From Pseudothermotoga thermarum DSM 5069 (GTDB lineage: Bacteria > Thermotogota > Thermotogae > Thermotogales > DSM-5069): 64,000 nt of DNA. The stretch's first letter is position 1, and every line of letters starts with the position of its first letter. Made by a program: the position numbers and the translations under genes. The stretch covers positions 1,042,014 through 1,106,013 of the forward strand of contig NC_015707.1 of the NCBI RefSeq assembly GCF_000217815.1, written 5' to 3'. Under the pieces are notes generated by a model. That model had not been told where the DNA came from, ran no database searches, and saw nothing but the letters and a program-made list of their open reading frames with translations. Below, piece after piece: positions 41,601 through 57,459 of this stretch.

Positions 41601-42854
41601 TGCTTCGCCTTTCTTGACAAAGCTCATTGTGATGGCTGAAAGTATCACAAAGCCTATTGAAAAAGGTATCAGTGAGGCATAACCAGCTGTATCTATGAAA
41701 ACACCTGCCAAAGGTGGAGCAAAGATGTTTGCTGCCATTGAAAAGAAGTAATACAAACCGGTGTACCCTCCAACTTTTTCCTGAGTGGTCATATCCACGA
41801 CCATCGGCAAAGAATTAACGTTTACCAAAGCCCATCCAGCACCACTGATTGCGAAAAGAACAAAAAGCTGCGTCAAAACGTTCTTGCCCGCCGAAAGTCC
41901 AGCAACGACAACGACTATTAGTAAACAAGTTATTAAAACGGAAAGACCAAGCAAAATCGTTCGTTTTCTTCCAAGCTTTGAACCCACCAAACCTGCCGGA
42001 ATTGCAGCAAGCATAAAAGTCAAAGAGAACACACCAAGAACAAGTGCTCCAGTGCTCTCAGATATGCCAAGGTAAAATTTCGCATAACTTGTGAAGAACG
42101 TTTCCAACGCGTTGAAACCTATGAACCAGAAAAGTATGGAAAGAAGCATGAACAAAAGACTTCTTTCCTTAGATTTAAAGGTATCCTTGAGATTGCTCAA
42201 AAGTTCTTGATTTCCTTTCTTTACAGTTTCAAAGACGCTGAGATTTACCTTAGATTTCACCGTATATTCTTCAGGTTCTTTGATGAAAAAAACGATGAGA
42301 ATATTCGCCCCAAGCATCATCAAAGCGCCAACGAAAAACGGATAAGCATAATTTGCATCATACAAAGGTTTGCCGGCAAAATAGGCGAGCAACGCTCCAA
42401 GACCACCCATGAAGTTGATAATTCCGTTAGCCTGGCTTCTAAACCTTGATGGCGTTATATCGGGCATCAGCGCAATTACAGGTGAACGAAACAGCGCCAT
42501 GGCAAAGTTCATGATTATTATCACAAGCATCATCAACGGTAAAGAGCCAATGCTTCTTGCCATTGGAATCAGCATGAAAAAGATTGCGGCTATCGGTGCT
42601 CCACCCAGTATGTACGGTTTTCTTCTTCCAAGTTTGGTTCTTGTTTGATCACTCAACGTTCCTATATATGGCAACATGAAGATCGCAAAGATGTTGTCGA
42701 TGGTCATTATCGCGCCTATGACGAAGGAACTGAGGGCGAAATCTTTAAGGAAAATCGGAACATAGGCGTTGTACAGAGGCCAAAGCACACTGATGCCAAA
42801 AAATCCAAAACCAAGGAGAAAAATCTTGGAATAACTGAACCTTTCCATGTTCAC
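41592..42854 (-). CDS. MFS sugar transporter, GPH/sucrose-porter-like
   Basis: A 420-residue transporter with about 12 hydrophobic helices. The loop between helices 2 and 3, GTLSDQTRTKLGRRKPYILGGAP, is typical of the glycoside-pentoside-hexuronide and sucrose-type MFS porters, so a sugar or glycoside substrate is likely. GTG 42854 is 6 bases after GGGGG; ATG 42848 is the alternative. It starts 22 bases after the HTH gene and probably shares its transcript. Confidence 0.82.
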   Translation of the reverse strand: MNMERFSYSKIFLLGFGFFGISVLWPLYNAYVPIFLKDFALSSFVIGAIMTIDNIFAIFMLPYIGTLSDQTRTKLGRRKPYILGGAPIAAIFFMLIPMARSIGSLPLMMLVIIIMNFAMALFRSPVIALMPDITPSRFRSQANGIINFMGGLGALLAYFAGKPLYDANYAYPFFVGALMMLGANILIVFFIKEPEEYTVKSKVNLSVFETVKKGNQELLSNLKDTFKSKERSLLFMLLSILFWFIGFNALETFFTSYAKFYLGISESTGALVLGVFSLTFMLAAIPAGLVGSKLGRKRTILLGLSVLITCLLIVVVVAGLSAGKNVLTQLFVLFAISGAGWALVNVNSLPMVVDMTTQEKVGGYTGLYYFFSMAANIFAPPLAGVFIDTAGYASLIPFSIGFVILSAITMSFVKKGEAVK

Positions 42855-44640: not shown

Positions 44641-46164
44641 ATGACGATTTCGTTTGAAAAATACGCTCAAAATCTCACAAAATTCGAGCGAAAGTACAAA
44701 AAACATTATCCACTACTATTTTTCATGAACTTCTTATTTCTAACAACAAACATTCTTACACCTTTGATCATCAAGGCACTGATTGATAACGTATTTCAAA
44801 ATCGTAATATTGTTGAAATTTTTCTTTTTGGCGGCTTGTACTTAGTAGTTCTCTTCCTTCAGTCCTTAGTTATGTATAGGATGAATTACTCTGCGTTCAA
44901 GCACTTGATTAACAAATCACAAGTAAAAGAATCAAAAAGTCTTTTTGCAAAAATACTGGCTTTACCATTTCGAGACCCGAATACTCAAAACGCAAACAAT
45001 TACCTATCGGTTTTTTTGAGGGATATACCGAAAGCAACAACAGGGGTGTATCTTGGAAAATTGCAGTTTCTGTTTAACTTGATTTTCTTTATCGCTCTTC
45101 TTTGTATACTATTTATCCTCAGCATGAAATTAACTATTCTTGTTATTGCCAGTGCTTTATTGTTTTACTTTTCAACAAGGTTTATAAAGAAAATCGTAAT
45201 CAGCTGTTCTGCGAAAGACAGAGAAGATTACCAATTGTTCTTGAAAAGATTCAAAGAAATCTTTGAGGGAATGTATACTTTAAAGCAATATCCTGACTCA
45301 AAAGTCACCGAAAAATTTGCCGATTTGAGTGCAAAAAGATGGATCAAATCAAATTTGAGACTGAGAATATCGAATGAATTATCCAATAGGAACATTGAAA
45401 TAAACAAAGAAATTGGCAAAGCTTTAGTGATTTCGATGGGTATCTACTTGCTTTTAAAAGGTGAAGTAACCGTCGGAACGCTTGCAGCGTATCAATTGTA
45501 CATGACATGGGTATACGATTCAATACGAATGATGATCACAGGTTTGATGATGTTCTTTTCCAGCTTACCCAACTGGGAAAGTTTTATGAAAATTTTCTCA
45601 AATCCTTCTGAGAAAACGGGAAACCAAATTCTACACAGTTTCCAAAGCCTAAAACTTGAAAACGTTGAATTCAGATACAACGACCTCAAAGTCCTTAACG
45701 GAGTCACAATTGAGATAACCGCAGGCGAAAGACTTGCGATAGTAGGCGGTTCAGGTGAAGGCAAAAGTACGTTGGTATCGCTTTTCAACGGATTTCTAAC
45801 CTCTTCAAGTGGTAAAGTACTCATTAATGATATTCCGATCGATGAATATTCACTTTCGTCAATTCGAAGAAAGATTCTCGTTGTTCGTCAAAACGATTAT
45901 CTTTTTGACACGTCAATAAAAAACAACATTACCTTGTTTGAGGACTATTCACAAGAACAGATAGAAAGAGTTTTGAAGGTGTGTGAATGTGATTTTGTTT
46001 ACCAATTAGAAGATGGGATAGATACGGTGGTTGGGGAAAGAGGAGCGAGGCTATCTGAGGGGCAGAAGCAGAGGATAGTACTTGCAAGAGCTTTGATACG
46101 GAAGCCAGAAGTATTGGTTTTGGATGAAGCAACATCTGCAATAGACAGTGGAGACTTAGGGTGA
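44641..46164 (+). pseudogene. ABC exporter, 5' part, cut by IS256-type insertion
   Basis: A half-size exporter with N-terminal membrane domain (six helices in about residues 20-300) and an ATPase: Walker A GGSGEGKST, signature LSEGQKQR, Walker B VLVLDEATSAID. The frame enters the insertion element after codon 503 and ends in four foreign residues, so the H-loop and C-terminus are lost. ATG 44641 follows AGGAGGTACTGATT. Substrate unknown; peptide or drug export is usual for the family. Removing the element and one target copy restores a continuous 570-residue protein. Confidence 0.88.
46142..46150. repeat. Left target-site duplication of the insertion sequence
   Basis: TAGACAGTG, repeated exactly at 47462-47470 on the other side. 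The exporter reading frame crosses from here to the right copy as ATA-GAC-AGT-GAA-GCA when the element is removed. Confidence 0.88.
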
Positions 46165-47462
46165 ATTTTGTGTCTGGACAAAATACCTCAGTTGAAACAT
46201 CTGGTTCAGCTCATACATACATCCCTTTACCCTCATTATCCCGTTCCTCCATTTTGTCTCCCTCAGGTTCTTCCTGTGCAAATACACGCTTAACTCCAAT
46301 AGCTCAACACTCCCAAAATATCCCCCACTTTTTATCCTTACTCGCTCTATCTTGCTGTTTATGCTCTCCACCGCATTCGTCGTGTATATGTATCCCCTCA
46401 ATTCCTCAGGATATTTCGTATATGCCACGTATTTCTCTTTCTTACCCTCCAAATATCTCACAAAACTCGGATACTCCTCTTTGTACTTCTCAAGCAGCTT
46501 CCCCATCTTCCCTAATGCCTCTTCATAGCTGAGTTTCTTCAATTCGTCCAACCCTTCCTTGAACCCCTTCGCATCCTCTCGCTTCATTTGCCTATCCGCA
46601 TTCCTCTTCAAATGCTTCACACAAAGCTGGTGATCCGCTAATGGATATACCATCCTTATTATCTCCCCTAATCCACTTAAATCGTCGCTTACTACTACCA
46701 TCACCCTCTTCAAGCCACGTCTCACCAAATCCTCAAATACCTTCCCCCATTCCACCCTGCTCTCCTTACCCAAATACGTGTACAAACCGTATATGTCCTT
46801 CTTCCCCTCCATGTCTATCCCCAATACTATGTAACATACCCCATACCTTACTTTCCCTTCTTCCCTTATCTCACTGTGGTAACCATCTATTATTAGCGCA
46901 AATGCCTCACTCGGTAGCTCCCTCTCCTTGAACCATCTCAATTCTTCCTTCAACCCTTCCTTTATCCTCTCAAGCTCCTTCTCCGAGTATGGTAACCCTA
47001 ACCTCTTCAAAACACTCATTATCTCAGACTCCGAAAACCCACTCGCTATCATCGATTCCAATAACTTAACATACGATTCGTCCAGCCTCTTGTACTTTTC
47101 CTTCAATAAATGTGGCCTAAAACCGCCTTTCCTCGTCCTCGGTACTTCAAGTTCCAAAATTCCATACGTGCTGTAAAGATCCCTTTCATACTTCCCGTTC
47201 CCTTTGTCCCCTTCCTCAGTCTCAAGATATATCTTTCTCTCTGAAAGCATTATCGTGTTCAAAAGCCTTTCAAACAAATCTGCAAGTGTTTCCCTTTGCT
47301 TTTGATCAGAATCATCCGCATATTCCTTAAGCAACATCTCTAAAGACCTTTTCTTGACTTGTTCAAAGTATTCCCTGTCTTCCAGAAATTTGTTCGACAT
47401 GCCCGACACCTCCTTATTGTACAATAATCTTACCACCAGACACAAAATTATCCGAACTCCCT
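46151..47462 (-). mobile_element. IS256-family insertion sequence
   Basis: An element of about 1312 bp inserted in the ABC exporter gene. The ends are imperfect inverted repeats that share AATTTTGTGTCTGG, plus scattered outer matches over about 27 bp. It is flanked by direct repeats TAGACAGTG (46142-46150 and 47462-47470); one T is shared with the element end, so the target duplication is 8 or 9 bp, as expected for IS256. It carries one intact transposase gene, transcribed opposite to the exporter. Confidence 0.93.
46156..47400 (-). CDS. IS256-family transposase
   Basis: A 414-residue DDE transposase (Transposase_mut family). The three catalytic parts are FALIIDGYHSE (first Asp), VMVVVSDDLSGL (second Asp) and YTTNAVESINSKIERVRIKSGGYFG (Glu). 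The signature region LADHQLCVKHLKRN is also present. ATG 47400 gives MSNKFLEDREYF and lies 8 bases after AGGAGG; the frame is open 15 codons further upstream but without a ribosome site. The gene looks complete, so the element may still move. Confidence 0.93.
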   Translation of the reverse strand: MSNKFLEDREYFEQVKKRSLEMLLKEYADDSDQKQRETLADLFERLLNTIMLSERKIYLETEEGDKGNGKYERDLYSTYGILELEVPRTRKGGFRPHLLKEKYKRLDESYVKLLESMIASGFSESEIMSVLKRLGLPYSEKELERIKEGLKEELRWFKERELPSEAFALIIDGYHSEIREEGKVRYGVCYIVLGIDMEGKKDIYGLYTYLGKESRVEWGKVFEDLVRRGLKRVMVVVSDDLSGLGEIIRMVYPLADHQLCVKHLKRNADRQMKREDAKGFKEGLDELKKLSYEEALGKMGKLLEKYKEEYPSFVRYLEGKKEKYVAYTKYPEELRGYIYTTNAVESINSKIERVRIKSGGYFGSVELLELSVYLHRKNLRETKWRNGIMRVKGCMYELNQMFQLRYFVQTQNSP

Positions 47463-51427: not shown

Positions 51428-51452
51428 AAAAATCCTTCGAGGGGGTAGAAGC

Positions 51453-52690
51453 ATGCGAAAACTCTTGATTATCGTGGTGTTAGCACTATCTCTGCTGGTG
51501 TTTGCTCAGGAGGTCTCAAGATCGGTGCCATTTTTCCATTGACCGGTCCAGCTGCAGCGACGGGGACAAAGATTAAATATGCCATTGAAGTTGCTCAGGA
51601 AATCATCAACGGAGTTTATCCGGATCTCGACGTACCACTTGCTAAGACATCAGGACTTCCAAATCTCGGCGGGGCAAAAGTGCAGTTTATTTTCGCAGAC
51701 CATCAAGCAAATCCAGAACTGGCAATGGCAGGAGCTGAGAGATTGATAACTAGGGAAAAAGTAGTTGCTTTAATTGGATGTTATCATTCTTCTTGTACAA
51801 AACCAGCGAGTCAAGTTGCTGAAAAATATGGTATACCCTTTGTGGCTGGTTCTTCAAGTTCTGCGGCATTAACCGAAAGAGGTTTGCAGTGGTTCTTCAG
51901 AATAGCTCCTCATGATGGGTTGGAAACCGATTTCTTCTTTGAATACCTTAGGTATTTGAACGGGAAATATAATGCGAATGTAAAACGTGTGGCAGTTGTC
52001 TATATAGACAACGAATATGGAGTTCACGCGGCACAGATGGTCAAGGAAAAGATAAAGAATTATCCGGAATTCACCTTGGTTGCCGATGTAAAATATCCAG
52101 TAAACGCCACAAACGTTGATATCGAGGTTCAGAAAGTGAAAGCTGCGAAACCAGATGCTGTTTTCCATGCTTCATATATAGGTGATATGACAATGTTTGC
52201 GAAGAAGTACAAAGAATTCAACGTTGCTCCAAAGGTTGTTCTGTCTTACTGTGGAGGTTATCATGATCCACAGTTTGTGATCAACCTTGGCAAAGACGCT
52301 GATTTCTTCTCTGGGGGAGCTGCAACTACACCTGTTCTCATGCCATTGTTGCCAGCCCTTGCAAAGATCAATGAAATGTACAAAGCAAAATCCGGCGTGG
52401 ATATCGACGGTCCGACTTTGGAAGACTTTGCCTCGGCTCTTGTAATAGCTGAAGCCATAAACTTAGCAGGCTCAACGGAACCCACGAAGATTCTCGAAGT
52501 ACTCAGAAACCACACATTTGAAGCTCCATATGTGCTCAGTGGTAAGATAAAGTTTGGACCAGATGGTCAGAACATTTACAACCCCAACGTCATGACGCAG
52601 ATAATCAACGGTGTCTACGAGGTTGTCTGGCCTGAGCGGTTCAGAACAAAGGAACCAGCCGTTCCAATGCCAGATTGGTCAAAGAGGTAA
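51453..52690 (+). pseudogene. LivJ-type branched-chain amino-acid binding protein, frameshifted
   Basis: Type 1 binding protein for leucine, isoleucine, valine or a similar ligand. ATG 51453, after GAGGGGG, opens a fine signal peptide (MRKLLIIVVLALSLLVFAQ), but this frame ends at TGA 51540. The mature protein (GLKIGAIFPLTGPAAATGTK onward to TAA 52690) lies in the -1 frame and has no start codon upstream of TTG 51539. The switch must fall at about 51508-51514, where one G seems lost from CAGGAGG(G)TCTC. The remaining 390 or so codons look intact, so the change is recent, or a sequencing error. Confidence 0.85.
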
Positions 52691-52768: not shown

Positions 52769-53623
52769 ATGCTAGGACAACTGATTCTCACAGGTATCTT
52801 GATAGGATCAGTGTATTCTTTGGTTGCAGTTGGTCTTACTCTCGTATGGGGATTGATGGATATAATCAACTTCGCTCACGGCGACTTTATGATGATATCA
52901 ATGTACGTAGTTTTTTGGCTTTACAGTCTTTTTAATCTCGACCCTCTCGTTTCTTTACCTGTGGCAGCCGGTGTGGCAGCATTGCTTGGACTAGTAACCT
53001 ATCAGTTCGTGATCAAACGGGTTCTCAATGCTCCTGGTTTGATGCCGTTGCTCGCAACTTTTGGTTTAAGTCTGTTCATTAGGAATCTTGCACAGTTCCT
53101 ATGGAGCCCGAACTATCGTTTTGTTAGTCAGTCCTTAGTGAGTGACAAGAGATTTTTTGTCGGTAGCCTCGTAATAGGTCTGCCCCAACTGGTAGCTGCA
53201 CTTGGAAGTGTCACTATGACGTTACTAATTGCTTTGTTCATTAAAAAAACCAAAACAGGAAAAGCTATTCAAGCTACTGCTCAGAGTAGGGATATAGCCG
53301 AATTGATGGGTGTTAATACCCAAAGAATATACGCCATAACTTTTGCTTTATCCGGCGTTTGCGTCGGTGTTGCAGGCACATTTCTCTCGAATATCTTTCC
53401 TGTTTACCCGGAATCAGGTGCCATGTATGGGTTGCTGGCATTCGTTATTGTAGCGTTGGGTGGTTTTGGAAACATCTGGGGTGCCTTCTATGCAGGATTA
53501 TTGATAGGATTAACCGAGACTCTCGGCGGATTCTACTTAGGAACACAGTTCAAATATGCTCTTGCTTTCTTAATATATCTACTTGTTTTGCAGTTCAGAC
53601 CTAAGGGTCTATTTGGATGGTGA
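52769..53623 (+). CDS. livH: LivH-type permease
   Basis: About 284 residues with 8-9 membrane helices, BPD_transp_2 family. Family text: GQLILTGILIGSVYSLVAVGLTLVWGLMDIINFAHGDFMM, TAQSRDIAELMGVNTQRIYAITFALSGVCVGVAG and ALGGFGNIWGAFYAGLLIG. ATG 52769 is chosen for AGAGAGGGGTG just upstream; an in-frame ATG or GTG near 52730 would be inside the hairpin. It overlaps livM by 7 bases. Confidence 0.92.
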   Translation: MLGQLILTGILIGSVYSLVAVGLTLVWGLMDIINFAHGDFMMISMYVVFWLYSLFNLDPLVSLPVAAGVAALLGLVTYQFVIKRVLNAPGLMPLLATFGLSLFIRNLAQFLWSPNYRFVSQSLVSDKRFFVGSLVIGLPQLVAALGSVTMTLLIALFIKKTKTGKAIQATAQSRDIAELMGVNTQRIYAITFALSGVCVGVAGTFLSNIFPVYPESGAMYGLLAFVIVALGGFGNIWGAFYAGLLIGLTETLGGFYLGTQFKYALAFLIYLLVLQFRPKGLFGW

Positions 53624-54606
53624 TGATGCGTATGATGCAAAAATTCAGGCTACTTATGATTCTCATGATTTTGCTTTTCATACTTCCGCTTATTGTCAGA
53701 GAAGTTCATTTCCAACATACGATGATAATGCTTGTACTCTTCGCTGGGCTTGGCGAAGCCTGGAACATCATAACAGGTTTTGGAGGCCAGACCTCCTTCG
53801 GACATGCAGCGTTTTTTGGTATAGGAGCGTATACATCGACTGTTTTATTCCACAAATTCGGTATTTCTCCGTGGGTTGGAATGCTTCTAGGGGCTGTTGC
53901 AGCGACTGTAGTAGCTGTTCTTGTGAGTTATCCTTGTTTTAGGCTAAAAGGGCATTATTTTGCAATAGCAACGCTAGCGGTTGCAGAGATCATCAAGCAA
54001 TTGTTCATCAGCTGGGATTATGTTGAAGGCGCTACAGGAATATCTATTCCCGTTGTAAAGGATAGTTTCGTTGCTATGCAATTTCATCAATCAAAGATCC
54101 CATACTTCGTAATAGCTTATCTTTTATTCCTTATTTCTACAATCGTTGCAATCGTAATTGAGCAAAACAAGATGGGATATTATTTGAAAGCTCTTAGAGA
54201 AAGCCATGAAGCAGCTGAGGCGCTTGGTATAAATACCACCAATTATAAACTTTCAGCAATGGCAATAAGCGCAGCATTAACTGCTGTCATGGGAACAGTC
54301 TATGCTCAGTATATCCTGTACATCGACCCTTTTATGGTTTTTGGACTTGATATTTCGATGAAAATAGTACTTTTAACTGTCCTTGGTGGAATTGGAAATA
54401 TATATGGTCCGATAATCGGTGCCAGTATATTGATACCACTTTCTGAGTATACTCGTGTAAGCTTGGGAGGCACAGGAAAAGGTATAGACTTGATGATTTA
54501 CGGTGTACTGATAGTGCTTATCGTATGTTTTGAACCAAAGGGAATAATAGGAATCGTTAGGACTTTTAGAAGAAGGAGTGTCAGCTATGGCAAGACCGCT
54601 GCTTGA
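53617..54606 (+). CDS. livM: LivM-type permease
   Basis: A 329-residue partner permease: LFAGLGEAWNIITGFGGQTSFGHAAFFGIGAYTS, YPCFRLKGHYFAIATLAVAEI, KALRESHEAAEALGINTTNYKLSAMAISAALTAVMG and TVLGGIGNIYGPIIGASILIPL. Several close starts are possible (53617, 53620, 53623, 53626). Its end overlaps livG by 20 bases. Confidence 0.92.
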   Translation: MVMMRMMQKFRLLMILMILLFILPLIVREVHFQHTMIMLVLFAGLGEAWNIITGFGGQTSFGHAAFFGIGAYTSTVLFHKFGISPWVGMLLGAVAATVVAVLVSYPCFRLKGHYFAIATLAVAEIIKQLFISWDYVEGATGISIPVVKDSFVAMQFHQSKIPYFVIAYLLFLISTIVAIVIEQNKMGYYLKALRESHEAAEALGINTTNYKLSAMAISAALTAVMGTVYAQYILYIDPFMVFGLDISMKIVLLTVLGGIGNIYGPIIGASILIPLSEYTRVSLGGTGKGIDLMIYGVLIVLIVCFEPKGIIGIVRTFRRRSVSYGKTAA

Positions 54607-55342
54607 AGTAAATGGTATCACGATGAAATTCGGAAGCCTTGTCGCAAACGACAACGTTTCCTTTGTAGTTAACGAAGGAGAAATAGTCAGTTTAATCGGT
54701 CCAAACGGTGCAGGAAAGACCACACTTTTTAACTGTATAAGTGGTTTTTACAAGCCTTTTTCTGGAAAAGTGTTGTTTGATGGCAAGGATATCACAGGTA
54801 AAAAACCACATCAAATAGCAAAGATTGGTTTGACAAGGACCTTTCAAATAGTCAAACCACTTCTTGATATGACGGTTTTCGATAATGTGCTTACTGGTGC
54901 TTTTTTGAGAGCAAAGACCAGAAAAGAGGCAGAAAAAATAGCAAACGAAGTTCTCGAATTAACGCACCTTTACGATAAAAGATTTATGCTTGCGGCAAAC
55001 CTAACGATAGCCGATAAAAAGAGGTTGGAAATAGCGCGCGTCTTGGCAACACAACCACGAATGATAATGCTCGACGAAGCTATGGCAGGTTTGAACCAAA
55101 CGGAGATAAAAGAAGCTGTGGAACTGTGTCTTAAGCTCAATCAACAAGGAATCACATTGCTTATCGTAGAACACATCATGGAAGCGATTATGCCTATTTC
55201 AAACAGAATAGTTGTCCTTAATGCTGGTAAAAAGATAGCAGAAGGTTCTCCAGAGGAAATTGCAAACAACGAAGAGGTTATAAAAGCCTACTTGGGGGAG
55301 AGATACCATGCTAAGAGTAAAGAATCTAACCGTCGGGTATAA
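54587..55342 (+). CDS. livG: LivG-type ATPase
   Basis: About 251 residues: Walker A GPNGAGKTT, Q-loop TFQIVKPLL, Walker B RMIMLDEAMAGL, switch IVEHIM. The signature region reads LTIADKKRLEIARVLA, where the usual LSGGQ-type LSYGxQR is replaced by IADKKRLE, an unusual feature. ATG 54587 lies 8 bases after AAGGAG; GTG 54578 is too close. It overlaps livF by 35 bases. Confidence 0.9.
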   Translation: MARPLLEVNGITMKFGSLVANDNVSFVVNEGEIVSLIGPNGAGKTTLFNCISGFYKPFSGKVLFDGKDITGKKPHQIAKIGLTRTFQIVKPLLDMTVFDNVLTGAFLRAKTRKEAEKIANEVLELTHLYDKRFMLAANLTIADKKRLEIARVLATQPRMIMLDEAMAGLNQTEIKEAVELCLKLNQQGITLLIVEHIMEAIMPISNRIVVLNAGKKIAEGSPEEIANNEEVIKAYLGERYHAKSKESNRRV

Positions 55343-56012
55343 CAGCGTACCAGTTGTTTTTGATGTTTCAATTGAGGTTAAAGAAGGCGAATTTGTTGCA
55401 ATCATAGGCTCAAATGGTGCTGGAAAATCAACCATTTTGAAAACAATAGCGGGTTTGTTAAAACCGATGTCAGGTGAAATTGAATTTTTGGGCAAGAAGA
55501 TACACACTCTTCCAGCACATGAAATAGTCAAGCTTGGTATCGCTATGGTCCCAGAAGGAAGACATGTTTTCGGAAAAATGAGTGTGTTGGACAATCTCCT
55601 CATGGGAGCTTACACGATAAAAGATAAAGAGAGAATAAAGCAAAATATTGAAAAAATGTTTGAGATTTTTCCAATCCTCAAAGAAAGACAAAATCAAAAG
55701 GCTGAGACACTTTCCGGTGGAGAGCAACAAATGCTTGCCATCGCTCGTGCTTTGATGGCTGAACCAAAACTTTTGCTCGTAGATGAAATGTCTCTTGGCT
55801 TGATGCCCTTGATGGTTGAAAAAGTTTTTGACATCATGATAAAGGTCAAGAGTACAGGGATATCTATTCTTATGGTTGAGCAAAGAGTTCAAGAATCGCT
55901 TGAAATAGCAGATAGAGCCTATGTTCTTCAAACAGGTAGAATTGTAGCAGAAGGAGAAGCAAGAAAACTGTTGGAAAGCGATTTGATAAAACGAGCTTAT
56001 TTGGGAATGTAG
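55308..56012 (+). CDS. livF: LivF-type ATPase
   Basis: A 234-residue ATPase: Walker A GSNGAGKST, signature LSGGEQQMLAIARALM, Walker B LLVDEMSLGLMPL, and MVEQRVQESLEIADRAYVLQTGRIV at the end. It completes the livJHMGF set. ATG 55308 lies inside the livG end. It is followed by a 40-base gap to gnd. Confidence 0.93.
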   Translation: MLRVKNLTVGYNSVPVVFDVSIEVKEGEFVAIIGSNGAGKSTILKTIAGLLKPMSGEIEFLGKKIHTLPAHEIVKLGIAMVPEGRHVFGKMSVLDNLLMGAYTIKDKERIKQNIEKMFEIFPILKERQNQKAETLSGGEQQMLAIARALMAEPKLLLVDEMSLGLMPLMVEKVFDIMIKVKSTGISILMVEQRVQESLEIADRAYVLQTGRIVAEGEARKLLESDLIKRAYLGM

Positions 56013-56052: not shown

Positions 56053-57459
56053 TTGAAAGCACAAATTGGGGTCGTAGGTTTAGCCGTTATGGGACAAAAT
56101 CTTGCTCTAAACATTGCTAGGAAAGGTTATATTGTAGCAGTTTATAACAGAACTTCGGAAAGAACAAAAAACTTTGTAGAACAAAGAGTCAAAGGTGAGA
56201 AAATTGTTGCTGCATATGATCTAAAGAGCTTTGTGGAATCGTTAGAAAGACCAAGGAAAATTATTTTGATGGTTAAAGCCGGTTCTCCTGTTGATGAAAT
56301 GATCGATGAACTTTTACCTTATCTTCAAGAGGGAGATCTTTTGATCGATGCTGGAAATTCTCATTACGAAGATACGAACAGAAGACTTGAAAGACTCTCA
56401 AAGATGGGAATATTGTTCCTTGGAACAGGAGTATCAGGTGGAGAATACGGAGCTTTGCATGGTCCATCCATAATGCCAGGAGGAACAAAAGAAGCTTACA
56501 AATTGGTTGAAGAAATTTTTTTGAAAATTGCTGCAAAGACGGAAGATGGTCCATGCTGCACGTACGTCGGAGATTATTCAGCAGGTCATTTTGTTAAAAT
56601 GGTTCACAATGGCATTGAGTACGCAATAATGCAAGCCATAGCAGAAGTTTACGATATCATGAGAAAAGTGCTTGGCTTGCAACCAAAGGAAATAGGAGAG
56701 ATTTTCAAAAAGTGGAATGAAGGCGAACTGTCATCGTTCCTTGTCGAAATAACCTACAAGATAATGGAGAAAATCGATGAAGAAACAGGAAAACCAATGG
56801 TTGATGTGATACTCGATAAAGCAGAACAAAAAGGCACTGGAAAATGGACGGTTGAAGCTGCTTTGGATTTAGGAGTACCAACTCCTTCTTTAAACCTTGC
56901 AGTTGTTGCAAGGGTTCTTTCACACTTCAAACAACAAAGAATGGAATTGTCAAAGCTCTATTGGCAAAAGCCAATTGTTAAAGCAGATAAGAATTTGATC
57001 GAATATCTTGAAAAAGCTTTGAGCCTGGCAATGTTTCTTGCATACTCACAAGGGCTTTGGTTGATAAGCGAAGCTTCAAAAGCTTTCAACTATGGAGTAA
57101 ACCTGCTGGAAATTCTTAGAATTTGGAAAGGCGGTTGCATAATCAGAGCAAAAATGATTGATTTTTTGAGAGAAATATTGAAAGAGAATCCTTCCAACGT
57201 GAACTTGCTTGAAAGCCAAAAAACGGTGGAATATCTAAAGCCAAGGATTGAACCTACGTTGAAGGTTTGCCAAATCGCAAGGGAAGCTCAAATACCAACA
57301 CCCGTTTTGAATTCTTCTCTTGATTATTTGTTCTCGATGAAAGAAGCAAACTTACCGGCAAATCTGATTCAAGCTCAAAGAGACTTCTTCGGTGCCCACA
57401 CATTCGAAAGAATTGATAAACCTGGTATCTACCATATAGAATGGCAACCTCTTGAATAA
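56053..57459 (+). CDS. gnd: 6-phosphogluconate dehydrogenase, decarboxylating
   Basis: Oxidises 6-phosphogluconate to ribulose-5-phosphate and CO2, giving NAD(P)H. The 468-residue long form: cofactor motif GLAVMGQNLALNIARKGY, substrate block GTGVSGGEYGALHGPSIMPGG, catalytic region HFVKMVHNGIEYAIMQ and KGTGKWTVEAALDLGVPTP. TTG 56053 follows AAAGGAGGTGCAAAAAA. It lies on the plus strand after the liv operon and may be read from it. A strong terminator follows. Confidence 0.96.
   Translation: MKAQIGVVGLAVMGQNLALNIARKGYIVAVYNRTSERTKNFVEQRVKGEKIVAAYDLKSFVESLERPRKIILMVKAGSPVDEMIDELLPYLQEGDLLIDAGNSHYEDTNRRLERLSKMGILFLGTGVSGGEYGALHGPSIMPGGTKEAYKLVEEIFLKIAAKTEDGPCCTYVGDYSAGHFVKMVHNGIEYAIMQAIAEVYDIMRKVLGLQPKEIGEIFKKWNEGELSSFLVEITYKIMEKIDEETGKPMVDVILDKAEQKGTGKWTVEAALDLGVPTPSLNLAVVARVLSHFKQQRMELSKLYWQKPIVKADKNLIEYLEKALSLAMFLAYSQGLWLISEASKAFNYGVNLLEILRIWKGGCIIRAKMIDFLREILKENPSNVNLLESQKTVEYLKPRIEPTLKVCQIAREAQIPTPVLNSSLDYLFSMKEANLPANLIQAQRDFFGAHTFERIDKPGIYHIEWQPLE

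Follow-up and report, generated by a model that had tools for sequence, protein, structure and literature searches.

A one-base frameshift separates signal peptide and mature domain in a livJ-type gene of the published Pseudothermotoga thermarum DSM 5069 genome

The stretch of DNA analysed here (the window, 64,000 nucleotides) comes from the hot-spring bacterium Thermotoga (Pseudothermotoga) thermarum DSM 5069, where it occupies positions 1042014-1106013 of a single-contig chromosome of 2,039,943 bp. The strain is the type strain LA3 of the species, originally Thermotoga and now Pseudothermotoga thermarum, and its finished genome has been published (PMC4148951). On its plus strand the window carries a LivJHMGF-type (HAAT) operon, comprising a Peripla_BP_6 binding protein, two BPD_transp_2 permeases and two ABC_tran ATPases, in which the binding-protein gene, livJ, is interrupted by a frameshift in the published assembly. 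A ribosome-binding site, AGGGGG (51440-51445), can be read in the sequence, and most orthologues have a G-rich site at the equivalent position of the alignment. It is followed by a short signal-peptide ORF (51453-51542) that runs from ATG 51453 as MRKLLIIVVLALSLLVFAQEVSRSVPFFH to a TGA at 51540-51542. This ORF consists of MRKLLIIVVLALSLLVFAQEV, with a typical 20-residue signal peptide, and eight out-of-frame residues, such that AQEV is followed by SRSVPFFH and the stop; against the intact orthologue of genome G004 it matches residues 1-21 (score 62). The mature substrate-binding protein (51515-52690, Peripla_BP_6) lies in the -1 frame relative to the signal-peptide ORF and ends with TAA at 52688-52690. 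Traced back to the previous stop, the mature frame offers 31 codons, and the sole ATG, GTG or TTG among them is the TTG at 51539-51541, which is internal to the protein and would cost it the signal peptide and the first strand. A preliminary description of this DNA had placed the two parts in different frames, with no usable start upstream of the mature one, and both statements are confirmed. It was also right that the rest of the binding-protein sequence is clean, with no stop in 382 codons, and that the other liv genes are intact: the genes for the LivH-like permease (52769-53623), the LivM-like permease (53617-54606), the LivG-like ATPase (54578-55342) and the LivF-like ATPase (55308-56012) are all open, of normal length, and carry their Pfam domains. 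The next gene downstream is gnd, for 6-phosphogluconate dehydrogenase (56053-57459), which also follows livF in three relatives.

Of the ten further genomes in the family, eight have an orthologue of livJ, at 77-83% identity and always in the same J-H-M-G-F operon order. All eight read in frame from the signal peptide to (V/I)KIGAIFPLTG, so that each has the in-frame signal peptide that the binding protein lacks here, and at the frameshift junction (51513-51517) the window is one base shorter than every one of them, at about 51513-51516. The frame is therefore broken where close relatives are intact, as in a recent pseudogene. The preliminary description had named an extra G at 51512-51514 as the base to look for in relatives; they are indeed one base longer, but that particular G would give Gly where they have Val or Ile. 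Because the relatives keep Val/Ile, a site one to three bases beyond it suits the gap better, outside AGGAGG, and on the alignment the exact position of the missing base within the junction is ambiguous.

Both halves of the gene are undecayed. Differences between livJ and its nearest relative are dominated by third positions (56/32/219 at codon positions 1/2/3), and its terminal branch in a maximum-likelihood protein tree measures 0.178, compared with 0.164 for two other lone lineages. Stops would arise from 147 of 3438 possible single changes (4.3%). With a fourfold-site distance to the nearest relative of about 1.8, half of which (about 0.9 substitutions per site) was assigned to the DSM 5069 branch, drift without constraint along the full branch would be expected to leave about 44 stops in the mature frame, and there are none. 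Any unselected period should thus amount to less than about 7% of the branch, a rough bound given that fourfold sites are near saturation. Since neither half has decayed, the lesion is either very recent or absent from the cells. We also considered relaxed selection on livJ as a sign of an older loss and rejected it, because livF, a gene of the same operon, shows the tendency too. At sites that do not vary among the other sequences, livJ has 22/268 unique changes and livF 15/134; the two other lone lineages have 11/257 and 14/260 for livJ, and 9/128 and 6/125 for livF. The rate in livJ is mildly raised and not gene-specific.

The reading that we favour, with a probability of roughly 0.62, is a genuine and very recent one-base deletion that makes livJ of DSM 5069 a null allele. 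We infer, then, that the cells do lack the base and that the lesion has a physiological effect. The undecayed sequence agrees with so recent a loss, but a sequencing error predicts it too, which counts against a genuine deletion. The main rival is that the base was lost only from the consensus of the assembly, by error, the gene being intact in the cells; this strikes us as possible if rather unlikely. Such an error would account for a signal peptide and a mature part that are both clean, without a trace of lost selection, within an operon that is otherwise whole and conserved in eight relatives. The stated error rate of the assembly, less than 1 in 100,000, is compatible with up to about 20 errors (PMC4148951), and a large survey of frame transitions expects sequencing errors to account for most singleton frameshifts validated by similarity (PMC3711429). 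But this is a finished genome, sequenced to 142x with Illumina and 6.8x with 454 and polished with the Illumina data (PMC4148951), and the lesion does not fall in a homopolymer, where 454 indels usually occur. The assembly has, moreover, very few other frameshifts in conserved genes. A census of about 490 orthologues, covering 1.24 Mb of the 2.04 Mb genome and deliberately including livJ as a positive control, found clean disruptions only in livJ, a transposase gene and fliI, from which we conclude that indels are not widespread in the assembly. Several other candidates from the census were discarded: the N-terminal flags other than livJ and the transposase were ORFs overextended upstream into neighbouring frames, a 119-codon ORF near 724 kb is antisense to a longer ORF, and most of the in-frame "stops" preceded the real start of the gene. 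The published annotation of the genome counts 69 pseudogenes (PMC4148951). The alternative framed in the preliminary description, a very recent knock-out or a sequence error, is supported; whichever of the two applies, deletion or sequencing slip, the cause is an ordinary event.

Readings in which the break is functional fare worse. The same description had proposed phase-variable control in the G-rich CAGGAGGTCTC, and a single-base lesion in the gene of an exported protein is in keeping with reversible switching by slipped-strand mispairing at the junction. Yet CAGGAGGTCTC contains neither a tandem repeat nor a run of more than two bases, the AGGAGG period is three bases and would leave the frame unchanged, and none of the eight relatives, all in frame, varies in repeat length at the junction, so that we hold this proposal to be exceedingly improbable and do not retain it. 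The only long run near the junction is TTTTT at 51531. A full-length protein might still be made if ribosomes shifted by -1 within the overlap (51515-51540), for example on A-TTT-TTC (51530-51536) with AGGAGGT (51508-51514) as an upstream stimulator. The direction is the one required, the T run and the Shine-Dalgarno-like element stand in the right order, and the mature frame is visibly under purifying selection, although that selection is mainly history from before the lesion. We nonetheless think such frameshifting very unlikely: all eight relatives do without a shift, so that the frame transition is not conserved, the heptamer is imperfect, AGGAGGT lies about 15 bases ahead of it, a long spacing, and no downstream structure is predicted (fold z +1.04). 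The combined proposition, that the broken frame is real and that AGGAGGT-stimulated -1 frameshifting still yields the exported protein as a lineage-specific rescue, is a little more doubtful again. Transcriptional slippage would fit no better, as the A or T runs linked to it in bacteria are about nine bases long (PMC1088944), and T5 is well under that length. Finally, a leaderless cytoplasmic protein could be imagined from the internal TTG 51539, which is in frame with an open frame beyond it and AGGAGGT ahead, or from a non-canonical start after AGGAGGT. To this we give next to no credence, because AGGAGGT is about 24 bases from the TTG, too far, and the product would have neither an export signal nor the first strand, KIGAIFPL, which is retained in every orthologue.

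If the deletion is genuine, strain DSM 5069 would have lost one base very recently at the signal-peptide/mature junction. Translation from ATG 51453 would yield a 29-residue signal-peptide fragment and terminate at 51540, and the mature domain would go unmade, or the internal TTG would give small amounts of it with no export signal. The importer would thereby be left without its own periplasmic partner. The loss may have occurred in culture, where it would be tolerable given a rich medium and two more systems of the same class. These two further Peripla_BP_6 systems, one a complete operon at 643956-648633 and the other at about 1244 kb of the genome, have intact signal peptides; with their exported binding proteins available, loss of livJ need not starve the cell. 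The preliminary conclusion that livHMGF would be without an exported partner therefore holds for this operon if the lesion is real, but a branched-chain role is not supported by the curated models, and two intact systems exist elsewhere. Our literature search found no proteome of the species.

What the importer carries is a separate question. No subunit reaches the NCBIfam cut-offs for branched-chain amino-acid importers: in bits against cut-off, J (the LivJ/LivK models), H, M, G and F score 71.9/477, 127.9/379, 121.8/366, 242.7/362 and 232/441, though these cut-offs may be narrow. The binding protein also falls far under the curated cut-offs for urea binding proteins, and among solved structures it comes closest to 8WCH (E 4e-69), with E. 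coli LivJ and LivK far behind; a literature search found no paper naming PDB 8WCH. Between 48521 and 59048 of the window, the neighbours of the "liv" genes are a 2-keto-3-deoxygluconate (KDG)-type kinase, an IclR/KdgR-like regulator, a xylose-isomerase-like or epimerase-like TIM barrel, gnd and an FGGY kinase. The last two also lie downstream of the operon in three relatives. These neighbours suggest a substrate other than branched-chain amino acids, and a sugar-acid-type ligand is a reasonable guess. The branched-chain label, unsupported by the curated models, is uncertain, and on present evidence the name branched-chain amino-acid importer should not be used for this transporter.

Outside the window, fliI (genome 41616-42998) has a single in-frame TAA at 42468 (TRWAMA*REVGLA) in a frame that is otherwise clean. 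It is the only gene for the flagellar export ATPase, with no second copy in the genome, and the description of the species includes flagella and motility, so that the nonsense codon suggests a recent loss at the level of the strain. Two fresh, isolated losses of dispensable traits, in livJ and fliI, would fit culture drift or domestication. The transposase gene of the census, at genome positions 445465-446639 and likewise outside the window, is split by a frame change into overlapping halves. Within the window, an ABC exporter-type ORF (44641-46164) stops abruptly (...LDEATSAIDSGDLG) at the start of an opposite-strand transposase ORF (46156-47445) and looks like a gene whose C-terminus was cut off by an insertion sequence. 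The importance of the livJ lesion is mostly for annotation and strain quality. If it is real, it and the fliI nonsense codon suggest that the sequenced type-strain culture has lost traits for which the species was described, and such losses should be kept in mind when physiology is inferred from the genome; if it is an error, one position in a reference genome is wrong.

Compared with known systems, the livJ lesion most resembles the singleton frameshifts of finished prokaryote genomes (PMC3711429), being a one-base frame transition in one species, with intact homologues elsewhere and neither a repeat nor a conserved slip site; only its exact place, at the signal-peptide junction, is distinctive. 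With the pseudo-pseudogenes rescued by A9 or T9 slippage (PMC1088944) it shares a broken frame and a conserved downstream part, but the longest run in the livJ overlap is T5 and no such rescue is expected. The operon itself resembles LivJ/HAAT-class binding proteins with LivHMGF in fold family (Peripla_BP_6, PF13458), in J-H-M-G-F order and, among the relatives, in the signal peptide. It differs from that class in the frame break between signal peptide and mature part, in scoring far below the branched-chain amino-acid cut-offs, and in its sugar-acid catabolism neighbours.
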